Source of the DNA: Halomonas sp.
GTDB taxonomy: Bacteria; Pseudomonadota; Gammaproteobacteria; Pseudomonadales; Halomonadaceae
Assembly: GCF_017983445.1 (NCBI RefSeq)
Contig: NZ_JAGOBJ010000008.1
Location: forward strand, 62,001-126,000
DNA: 64,000 nt
Reading direction: 5' to 3'
The translations under genes and the position numbers were made by a program. The notes under the pieces are model-generated. The model was not told the DNA's origin. It saw only the letters and a list, made by a program, of their open reading frames with translations, and searched no databases. Below, in pieces: positions 84 to 3,838 of this stretch. How positions within the stretch are numbered: the stretch's first letter is position 1; the number at the start of each line of letters is the position of its first letter.

Positions 84-542
84 TTATTTTTCTGGCGCGT
101 GAGCTGCCAGCCGTTCAAGCGCCTTACGAAGCGCGGGGTTCTGCATGTCGCTTGCGCACTCCGCCAGGGTTTGACCTGCGCTGGCTGAAAGCTTGCGCGT
201 GTTGCGCAGTGGCGCTTCAACCGGATGTACAGGGCGAACTTTAAAAGTAAAGCCGCTTACGGCTTCAAAACCGGGCAGTTGGTGGAGCAGTGTCAATAAA
301 CGTCGCTGCTCAAAGCGGAGCCAGGTCAACCAACTGGCTTGACCGCTGATAAGGGTCAAGCGACCTTCACGGAAGCCGCCCACAAAAATATGCTGACGCA
401 TTTCTTCAGGTAGATGTGCGCGTAAGTGGCTCTGGGCCTGGTCAATAAGACGAGATTGGCGCATTAATTGGCCAATATCGCCAGACTTGTTTAGCAGGCG
501 GGCGATGGGCTGGGCCTGAGAACGCTTAACCTTTATACTCAT
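84..542 (-). CDS. dciA: DciA family (DUF721) replicative helicase loader
   Basis: A 152-residue DUF721 protein. Members of this family (DciA) help load the DnaB replicative helicase in bacteria that lack DnaC/DnaI. The basic N-terminus, the central region containing the WLTWLRFEQRR segment and the overall length fit the gammaproteobacterial form, whose gene often sits just before secA and reads the other way, as here. The assignment is from sequence character and position, not from a catalytic motif, since the family has none. The poorly conserved C-terminal third is normal. It is transcribed away from the secA leader, so the 543-648 gap is a divergent promoter region. Confidence 0.8.
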   Translation of the reverse strand: MSIKVKRSQAQPIARLLNKSGDIGQLMRQSRLIDQAQSHLRAHLPEEMRQHIFVGGFREGRLTLISGQASWLTWLRFEQRRLLTLLHQLPGFEAVSGFTFKVRPVHPVEAPLRNTRKLSASAGQTLAECASDMQNPALRKALERLAAHAPEK

Positions 543-648: not shown

Positions 649-1011
649 ATGTCCTCAACGCTTAATGCCTTTTATGCTTTGCCGCGACGTTACCGTCGTT
701 ATGGCCTGGCGCGTTGGTGGCTGGCGGGCCTCCTGGTAAGCTGCCTTTTACCCAGTAGTCTAGTTCCTTCTGATGCATTTCGCGGTACTGAACGCAGCGT
801 TAGCGTTTGCCTATGGGTGCCCGCTATTTTACGTGCCCAGTCTCACTGGATCGCCAAAAGGCGACGCGCCTTTAAACGTTGGCAGCGGCGCATCAAGCAG
901 GTGAAGGTGCTGCGCCACTGTTTGCCCGCGTATCGCTTTATAACGCGCCAGGTGGCCGCGCGCGATGTGCTTACCCAACGTGGCCCGCCTGCTGACTTCA
1001 TTGTTTGCTAG
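649..1011 (+). CDS. Putative SecM-like exported arrest peptide upstream of secA
   Basis: A 120-residue ORF with SD-like AGGAG at 632-636. Seen in the sequence: a strongly basic N-terminus (RRYRR), a signal-sequence-like hydrophobic segment at about residues 22-40, a basic middle region, and a C-terminal R111-G112-P113-P114 encoded at 979-990, only six codons before the stop. Known background: SecM of enterobacteria is an exported peptide just upstream of secA that stalls its ribosome at Arg-Ala-Gly-Pro near its C-terminus, and other arrest peptides stall at RAPP or RAPG; stalling is relieved by Sec pulling. Inference: this is an analogous secretion monitor controlling secA, although the sequence is otherwise unlike E. 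coli SecM. It could instead be an ordinary small membrane protein. I do not recognise a named family. Confidence 0.6.
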   Translation: MSSTLNAFYALPRRYRRYGLARWWLAGLLVSCLLPSSLVPSDAFRGTERSVSVCLWVPAILRAQSHWIAKRRRAFKRWQRRIKQVKVLRHCLPAYRFITRQVAARDVLTQRGPPADFIVC

Positions 1012-1084: not shown

Positions 1085-3838
1085 ATGATTAATAATTTGT
1101 TACGTAAAGTAGTCGGTTCTAAGAATGACCGTGAAGTAAAGCGCATGCACAAAAACGTTCACGGTGTGAACGCGCTTGAGGCAGAGTTTGAAAAACTGAG
1201 TGATGAAGAGCTTCAGGGCAAAACGGCAGAACTGCGTCAGCGGCTGAGCAACGGTGAAGCGCTTGATAACCTATTACCCGACGCCTTTGCAATCGTACGT
1301 GAGGCGAGCAAGCGCGTGATGGGAATGCGCCATTTCGATGTACAGATGGTTGGGGGCATGACCCTGCATCGTGGGCGTATCGCCGAAATGAAAACCGGTG
1401 AAGGTAAAACGCTAGTCGCAACGCTTGCGGTTTATTTGAATGCGCTGCCCGCCAAAGGCGTGCACGTTGTAACGGTGAACGATTATCTGGCGCGCCGTGA
1501 TGCCGAGTGGATGCGTCCGCTGTATGAATTCCTCGGGCTCACCATCGGCGTTATCTTTTCGGGTCAGACCGGTGAAGAGAAGCGTCATGCCTACCGGTGT
1601 GATATCACCTACGGCACCAACAACGAGTTTGGTTTTGACTACCTGCGCGACAACATGGCGTTCTCCCTGGAAGACAAGGTGCAGCGTGGCTTGCATTACG
1701 CCATTGTCGATGAGGTCGACTCCATCCTGATTGATGAAGCGCGTACGCCGCTGATCATCTCTGGCGCGGTGGATGAAAATACCAATCTTTATAACGTCGC
1801 GAATCAGCTCTCTTTACAGTTAGAGCAAGGGGAAGTGTCGGAAGACGACGATGTACCTGCGACCGGCGATTTCGTGCTGGATGAAAAACAGAAACAGGTT
1901 GAGCTGACCGAGCAGGGGCATAACAAGGTAGAAGAGCTGATGCAGGCGGAGGGCCTTCTTAAAGAAGGTGAATCGCTCTATGCGGCGCAAAACCTTAACC
2001 TGCTTCAGCATATTCACTCTGCACTACGCGCGCGTTATCTTTATAACCGCGATGTGGACTACATCGTTTCCGAAGATCAGGTGGTCATCGTTGATGAGCA
2101 TACCGGCCGGACGATGCCGGGTCGCCGCTGGTCTGAAGGTTTACACCAGGCTGTTGAGGCCAAAGAAGGTGTAACCGTTCAGCGTGAAAGCCAGACGCTG
2201 GCATCCACGACCTTCCAGAACTATTTCCGCCTGTATGAAAAACTCGCAGGCATGACCGGTACCGCCGATACCGAAGCGTTCGAATTTCGCCAGATTTACG
2301 GCCTTGACGTTATCGTCATTCCGACCAACCGTCCGTTGGCCCGGGAGGATCTCAACGATCTGGTCTACTTGAGCGCTGAAGAAAAATACGAAGCGATTAT
2401 TAAAGACGTCAAGGCTGAAACCGAAGCAGGACGTCCGGTGCTGGTAGGTACCGCTTCAATTGAAACGTCAGAATATCTTGCGCGCCTGATGGATGATGCA
2501 GGTCTCAAGTTCAGCGTTCTGAATGCCAAGCAGCACCAAAGCGAAGCGGAAATTATTGCTCAGGCGGGTCGCCCTGGCGCTATTACGATCGCCACCAATA
2601 TGGCCGGTCGGGGTACCGACATCATGCTGGGCGGTAACTGGGAAGCAGACGCCGCCAAGCTGCAGAACCCAAGCCAAAACCAGATGGATGCGTTGAAAGC
2701 CGAGTGGCAACAGCGCCATGACGGCGTGCTGGCAGCCGGTGGCTTGCACGTTATCGGCTCTGAGCGCCATGAGTCCCGGCGTATTGATAACCAGCTGCGT
2801 GGCCGTGCCGGTCGTCAGGGTGACCCAGGTTCGACCCGCTTCTTCCTGTCGCTGGAAGATAGCCTTATGCGTCTGTTCGGCTCTGATCGCGTTAAGCGCT
2901 TGATGCAGGCGCTGGGTCTTGAACGCGGTGAGGCCATCGAGCACAAGATGGTATCTAACGCGGTAGAGCGGGCGCAGAAAAAAGTTGAAGGACGTAACTT
3001 CGATATCCGTAAGCAGCTGCTTGAGTATGATGATGTTGCCAACGACCAGCGCCGGGTTATTTACGAACAGCGCAACGAAGTCCTGGCCTCCGACGATATT
3101 TCAGAAGCGATCGTGGGTATCCGTGAAGAAGTTATGGAGGACTCCATCAGCGACTTCGTGCCACCTCAGAGCCTTGCCGAACAGTGGGACTTGCCTGCTC
3201 TGGAAGCGCATCTCAAGGCGGAGTTCAATCTGGATGCTCCGGTGGTTCAGTGGGCGGCTGAAGATGAGCGTTTCAGTGAAGAGAAGTTGCGTGAACGTCT
3301 CCAGACCATGCACCGTGAAGCCTATGCAGCCAAGGTGGATTCAGCCGGGGCTACTCTGATTCGTCGCTTTGAAAAGCAGGTAATGCTGCAGGTTCTGGAT
3401 ACGCGTTGGAAAGAGCATTTGCAGTCTATGGATCACCTGCGTCGTGGTATTCACCTGCGTGGCTACGCCCAGAAAAACCCCAAGCAAGAGTACAAGCGCG
3501 AATCTTTTGAGCTGTTCCAACACCTGTTGACCAATATCAAGGCGGACGTTACCCGCATATTGAGTCATGTCCAGGTACGCCAGCCTGAAGAGGTCGATGC
3601 GCTGGAGCAAAAACGTCGTGAGGAGCTTGCCCGTGAAAAAGCGGCCGCCGCTACCCGTCACGATGACGCCTCAGCGAATGAGAATGCAACGGGAGCAGAA
3701 ATGGATGGCGTCGATGACAATGACGCTAACCCGGATGCACGCCCGGTGCGTCGCGAAGGGCCTAAAGTCGGACGTAACGACCCCTGTATTTGCGGCTCGG
3801 GTAAAAAGTACAAGCAGTGCTGTGGCAAATTAAGCTAA
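1085..3838 (+). CDS. secA: Preprotein translocase ATPase SecA
   Basis: A 917-residue motor ATPase that drives unfolded preproteins through SecYEG at the inner membrane. Visible signatures: Walker A TGEGKT (about 104-109), the DEAD-like DEVD box at 209-212 followed by [14 protein letters not shown], the second RecA domain with [13 protein letters not shown] and the [14 protein letters not shown] motif, the long helical scaffold, and a C-terminal zinc site with Cys901, Cys903, Cys912 and Cys913 that in relatives binds SecB and lipid. The length is normal. The ATG at 1085 has only a weak ribosome binding site, which fits translation set by the upstream arrest-like ORF. The next gene, argJ, follows after 34 bp and may be co-transcribed. 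Confidence 0.98.

Follow-up and report, generated by a model that had tools for sequence, protein, structure and literature searches.

The small open reading frame directly 5′ of secA in Halomonas sp. very probably encodes a ribosome arrest peptide of the RAPP class that works like SecM. The window, that is, the whole 64,000-nucleotide stretch of DNA that was analysed, carries this ORF at positions 649 to 1011 of the forward strand (120 codons, ATG start, TAG stop included). The original prediction had read it as an arrest peptide, and that reading is strongly supported by conservation and by the published stalling of a Pseudomonadales RGPP upstream ORF (uORF) of secA. In the mechanism we propose, the signal sequence would target the growing peptide to the Sec apparatus, RGPP would stall the ribosome with codon 113 in the P site, a pull on the chain by SecA/SecYEG would free the arrest, and a longer stall would mean more secA translation. 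Stalling of the window protein itself would be expected by analogy with the published peptides, and release by pulling and secA induction by analogy with SecM. Coupling of secA translation to Sec activity is plausible, on the basis of the position of the ORF, its signal, its spacing and a predicted hairpin 5′ of the secA ATG.

The ORF is a real gene, because all 37 same-genus genomes searched with its protein carry it at E 3e-12 or better. AGGAG at 632 to 636 on the forward strand is probably its ribosome binding site. The divergent neighbor dciA (84-542, reverse strand; Pfam DciA, E 6.1e-8) lies on one side, and secA, the presumed regulated gene (1085 to 3838, forward strand), lies on the other, with a weak Shine-Dalgarno-like GGA at 1076-1078 and its ATG 73 nt beyond the stop of the ORF. 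In the window, as in family loci, the frame directly 5′ of secA on the same strand is a small ORF without annotated function, and at every family locus read the ORF with a signal-like core is the uORF of secA. The N-terminus has a basic stretch followed by the hydrophobic core WWLAGLLVSCLLPSSL, the middle part is arginine-rich, and the protein ends in VAARDVLTQRGPP and six further residues. R111 is encoded at 979-981, G112 at 982-984, P113 at 985-987 and P114 at 988-990, followed by ADFIVC and the stop. All checkable details of the original prediction were thus correct: an ORF between dciA and secA whose N-terminus resembles a signal and in which six residues separate R111-G112-P113-P114 from the stop. 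The hydrophobic core after the basic stretch has a median Kyte-Doolittle mean of 1.93 and a minimum of 1.55 over 153 frames. Rfam gave no family in 500-1200 at E 1, a pattern scan of 540-1090 gave no sigma-70-like promoter and no intrinsic terminator pattern, and no solved structure matched the ORF protein at E 1.

The motif carries most of the argument. To avoid circularity, proteins for the motif census were picked by the signal core alone, with the motif unused. The 204 loci came from the same-genus search, the named-species scan, the family and order searches and two picked sets; several loci per genome were possible, and the loci cover part of the 135 genomes that bear the ORF. One picked set held 40 places, mostly weaker matches and other genera, and the second took a single genome from each of 19 other genera with the ORF and one additional genome of one genus. 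An earlier count of 154 distinct frames included copies cut by locus ends, and a recount from nine residues before the signal Cys to the stop gave 142 distinct proteins, with L068 (frame interrupted) and L146-L180 (outside the family) left out. R-(G/A)-P-P is present in 142/142 of them (RGPP in 133, RAPP in 9), with R, P and P invariant, which is far beyond chance. It occurs in all 40 loci of the weaker matches and other genera; the family members with the two poorest scores (E 1.5e-7 and 2.4e-7) end in SRRGPP. L033, which was excluded from the 91-protein alignment and from the codon and masking analyses, also carries RGPP. Conservation of RGPP among relatives was a point on which the original prediction could have fallen, and the claim survives. 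RAPP replaces RGPP naturally at L186-L191, L203, L205 and L097. In Halomonas olivaria TYRC17 (L068:2001-2476) an interruption breaks the frame, with the RGPP stretch found in a different one; this is either a decayed copy or a sequencing error.

The surroundings of the motif behave differently. The conserved C-terminal stretch covers codons 102-114 (952 to 990, forward strand) in the alignment, the codon analysis and the 142-protein census, and there is a tendency toward A-x-D-V-L-(T/S)-x on the 5′ side of the motif, with Asp in 129 and Val in 123 of the 142 proteins. The tail on the 3′ side runs to 1-13 residues, or 44 in one protein (L201), and is patternless, with a length sd of 4.09. Across the 91 aligned proteins, variability is highest in the columns of the linker and the tail, and positions 36 to 10 N-terminal to the motif Arg share 14% identity from protein to protein, with 10% for shuffled sequences. 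Among 90 distinct sequences the motif uses each of the four Gly codons, each of the four Pro codons and five of the Arg codons. Because the codons are free while the residues are fixed, selection is acting on the peptide rather than the RNA. An invariant motif with free codons, tail and linker is the pattern by which arrest peptides evolve.

RAPP-like arrest peptides are known to occur 5′ of sec genes, as reported in a scan of 30,175 genomes for uORF arrest peptides (Fujiwara et al. 2024, PMC10987492). One of these, uA_RQH_Pseudomonadales of the RQH family, carries R109GPP 5′ of secA in a subset of GTDB (release 202) Pseudomonadales; ribosomes of both E. coli and B. subtilis stall on it, with an arrested fraction above 0.9 (PMC10987492). 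The third motif residue was in the P site for all RQH peptides tested (PMC10987492), and from this register the predicted stall at RGPP of the window ORF (979 to 990, forward strand) places P113 (985-987) in the P site, with P114 (988-990) occupying the A site. Of the RAPP-like sequences tested from ordinary proteins of E. coli and B. subtilis, most failed to cause efficient stalling (PMC10987492), so that the motif by itself does not prove arrest. RGPP supports arrest in the ApdP, ApcA and SecM contexts, where it is reported to be less tunnel-dependent (PMC12992588).

The window ORF shares with uA_RQH_Pseudomonadales its position as a uORF of secA and a C-terminal RGPP, and its signal-like N-terminus may correspond to the N-terminal signal of that group. 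The motif Arg is at 109 in the tested protein and at 111 in the window protein; among 154 family frames, which include copies truncated at locus ends, 10 have it at 109. Halomonadaceae belongs to Pseudomonadales in GTDB; NCBI places the family in Oceanospirillales. Among 23 genomes of other families, one of them uninformative, no RAPP-like ORF end was found just 5′ of secA, bar one chance RDPP. Since the motif is lacking at secA in those genomes and GTDB places Halomonadaceae as above, the window ORF family is probably the same group as uA_RQH_Pseudomonadales. The main text of PMC10987492 does not contain "Halomon" and names no species for this group. A literature search for Halomonas with arrest peptide or SecM at secA, or with translation arrest, returned nothing on the subject. 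An arrest peptide 5′ of secA here is not categorically new, as the kind, and probably the group itself, has been published, a point missing from the original prediction.

Comparison with established systems places the ORF near SecM in arrangement and apart from it in sequence. Like E. coli SecM, it precedes secA, begins with a signal-like sequence and carries near its C-terminus an arrest core resembling R-A-G-P, and the distance from the P-site codon (first base) to the secA ATG is 100 nt in the window and 82 nt in E. coli secM. However, hhalign gave a probability of only 0.2% (E 0.29) between SecM and the window ORF, Pfam and NCBIfam gave no SecM match for the ORF, and the E. coli sequence FxxxxWIxxxxGIRAGP is absent from the window protein, whose C-terminus reads VAARDVLTQRGPP. 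The three comparisons bear out the earlier remark that no SecM family likeness is evident. With ApdA and ApdP the ORF shares a RAPP or RGPP core and, presumably, the same block of the peptidyl transferase; those peptides precede secDF in Actinobacteria and Alphaproteobacteria, whereas the window ORF precedes secA.

The presence of the ORF was followed across the family and the order. Searches of 21 genomes from other families of the order with the same protein query gave nothing better than E 0.018, and a scan of named-species genomes gave 79 loci, with titles from Halomonas, Vreelandella and one Halovibrio. A 39-row profile found the ORF in 135/151 family genomes and 20/24 genera. Across 293 order genomes there were 17 matches at E 0.01, of which 12 were from the family itself; the other 5 scored E 0.003-0.009 with alignments that stop short of the motif. 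The 16 family genomes without the ORF fall into four genera (8, 6, 1 and 1). Six of these genomes, representing all four genera, were read, and each has an M23 peptidase-like gene 5′ of secA, as do 19/23 genomes of other families. In total this gene stands at 25 of 29 ORF-less loci (L151-L156, L158-L164, L166-L170, L172, L173 and L175-L179); of the remaining four, three have dciA near secA, and the contig of L174 is too short to show the upstream gene. Six of the 25 M23 proteins (four within the family, two outside) were compared with Pfam, and every one hit Peptidase_M23, with E values of at most 1.1e-32. A query made of the N-terminal 110 residues of a single M23 protein matched 4/4 ORF-less genomes at E 0.001 and, searched genome-wide at the same threshold, 0/10 genomes that bear the ORF.

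In a SecA tree of 38 rows, drawn with a midpoint root and with 471 residues in the window row against about 700 in the others, the 21 ORF-bearing rows form one side of a branch with support of 100/100. A single gain in the clade's ancestor, with the M23 gene lost alongside, explains this most simply. Sequence comparison lends no support to the idea that the ORF arose from a decayed M23 gene: BLASTP of 91 ORF proteins against 25 M23 proteins gave a best E of 0.014 among many pairs. A literature search found no paper joining peptidase M23, secA and an arrest peptide.

The protein itself falls into parts under distinct constraints. The signal core covers codons 21-38 (709 to 762, forward strand; A R W W L A G L L V S C L L P x x L), with Cys32 at 742-744. 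A21-A26, L28-V30 and C32-P35 are invariant in 91/91 aligned proteins, and the Cys is present in 142/142 proteins by construction of the search pattern. The residues leading to this Cys are LVSC in 63 proteins, LVGC in 59, LIGC in 7, LFGC and LLSC in 5 each, LVTC in 2 and LISC in 1. We take the LV(S/G)C of the core to resemble a lipobox. The middle block, codons 45-76 (781 to 876, forward strand), is conserved, with a mean pairwise identity of 0.41 over residues 13-41 after the Cys, and at the stall it would lie outside the ribosome tunnel. In SecM, the chain outside the ribosome is reported to stabilize arrest (PMC4373844). The linker, codons 77-101 (877 to 951, forward strand), is by its column entropies not conserved in sequence; its length is nearly fixed. 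The spacer at 763-978 is strongly basic, with a median net charge of +12 and a range of 2 to 17 over 153 frames. This is odd for a Sec substrate and perhaps serves as a means of slowing export.

The distance from the Cys to the predicted P-site Pro is 77-84 aa (mean 80.9, sd 1.65, 142 proteins). Measured roughly as in Fujiwara et al., signal and arrest site are separated by 71-78 residues in 153 frames, above the cut-off of >30 for the RQH family. Spacer length is reported to be mostly variable in Sec-linked arrest peptides; SecM shows two peaks (medians 131.5 and 71), and the distribution for MifM is narrow (median 54) (PMC10987492). The near-fixed spacing suggests a length constraint, and kinship of the sequences also favors constancy.

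The secA leader may contribute to the response. A predicted mRNA hairpin at 1043 to 1065 of the forward strand (1043-1048 with 1060-1065, inner stem 1051-1053 with 1057-1059) ends 19 nt 5′ of the secA ATG and thereby precedes the weak Shine-Dalgarno-like site; in the SecM system, an mRNA stem covers the Shine-Dalgarno sequence of secA and is opened by the stall. In 36 Vreelandella-type leaders it is paired in 84.3% of cells, versus 35-52% when slid, and 3/6 of its pairs show changes on both sides. Shuffles reached the observed paired percentage in 20/500 cases, the covariation score in 14/500, the number of double-changed pairs in 94/500 and the pair types in 462/500; these alignments lend the hairpin moderate support in Vreelandella-type leaders. 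The case from covariation appears weaker in 23 Halomonas-type leaders, where 82.3% of cells are paired and shuffles reached the observed double-changed pairs in 325/500 and the covariation in 56/500. On these leaders RNAalifold chose a different short hairpin, which shares an invariant GGC. Halomonas-type leaders (alignment A3 columns 14-45; e.g. L092:2306-2383) can be drawn with two hairpins over the same GGC, which makes them mutually exclusive, and the pair is a possible switch. The folding energy of the leader as a whole is ordinary relative to shuffled sequences (z 0.11 and 1.10). When the mRNA covered by a stalled ribosome was masked, the predicted access of the secA start changed little: it rose in 50/91 leaders (mean from 0.480 to 0.505), and effects above 0.1 were rises in 17 and falls in 5 of the 91. 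The same masking on the E. coli secM-secA control, where the mechanism is established, gave no change (0.49 to 0.50), so the masking result is uninformative. A second frame at 1035-1088 (17 residues, overlapping the secA start by ATGA) had looked like the product of a frameshift or of a second gene and was rejected: on visual inspection relatives do not maintain it (e.g. L017, L005), and its letters coincide with the hairpin.

The held spacing raises the question of what the peptide senses. It is rather unlikely that the arrest responds to a step narrower than general Sec activity, such as a membrane-insertion or lipoprotein-type step, by way of the invariant LV(S/G)C core with its near-fixed distance to the stall as a ruler. 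The 77-84 aa between Cys and P-site Pro are held across a linker of 14% identity, and the residues before the Cys recall a lipobox. YidC-type sensors are also reported to have narrow spacer lengths where Sec-type ones vary, but short SecM variants cluster as well, at a median of 71 (PMC10987492). A PROSITE-like lipobox pattern fits only 18/154 frames (some of them cut copies), the hydrophobic residues run on beyond the Cys, and the downstream gene is secA. A more specific form is unlikely: a ruler-type sensor whose Cys core, possibly lipidated, would have to lie at a distance of 77-84 residues from the stall, with release then reporting one defined export step instead of any pull. That form includes a single origin in place of the M23 gene and retention in every searched genome of the clade, with the same low probability.

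Two further explanations do without arrest. The ORF could encode a secreted or membrane small protein with a function of its own, R-(G/A)-P-P being a functional end and no stall signal. The conserved middle block and nearly invariant signal core would suit such a protein, but the linker and post-motif residues are unconserved, the tails differ in length, and the motif is the published stalling motif at the published place; we regard this as quite improbable. It is most improbable that RNA or plain translational coupling acts alone, with translation of the ORF opening the secA leader and stalling irrelevant. The hairpin near the secA ATG, with pairing kept as described, agrees with coupling, but RGPP is unnecessary for it, the motif codons vary freely with their residues fixed, and the gap between ORF and secA ranges widely, from 39 to 138 nt among loci.

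The reading we prefer remains a RAPP-class arrest peptide that works like SecM. What is new here is an ORF present throughout one SecA clade, its apparent replacement of another gene, its held spacing and its Cys-containing core. Its uniformity across the family contrasts with the patchy pattern reported for such peptides. The ORF would offer a clean case of the origin and upkeep of an arrest peptide, with one bearer clade and the apparent replacement of an existing gene. With an unchanging R-(G/A)-P-P core and a free linker of held length, its 20 genera provide natural variants for comparison. Halomonas and its relatives serve as production hosts. If our reading is true, these bacteria control their secretion motor by a SecM-like feedback that evolved apart from SecM.
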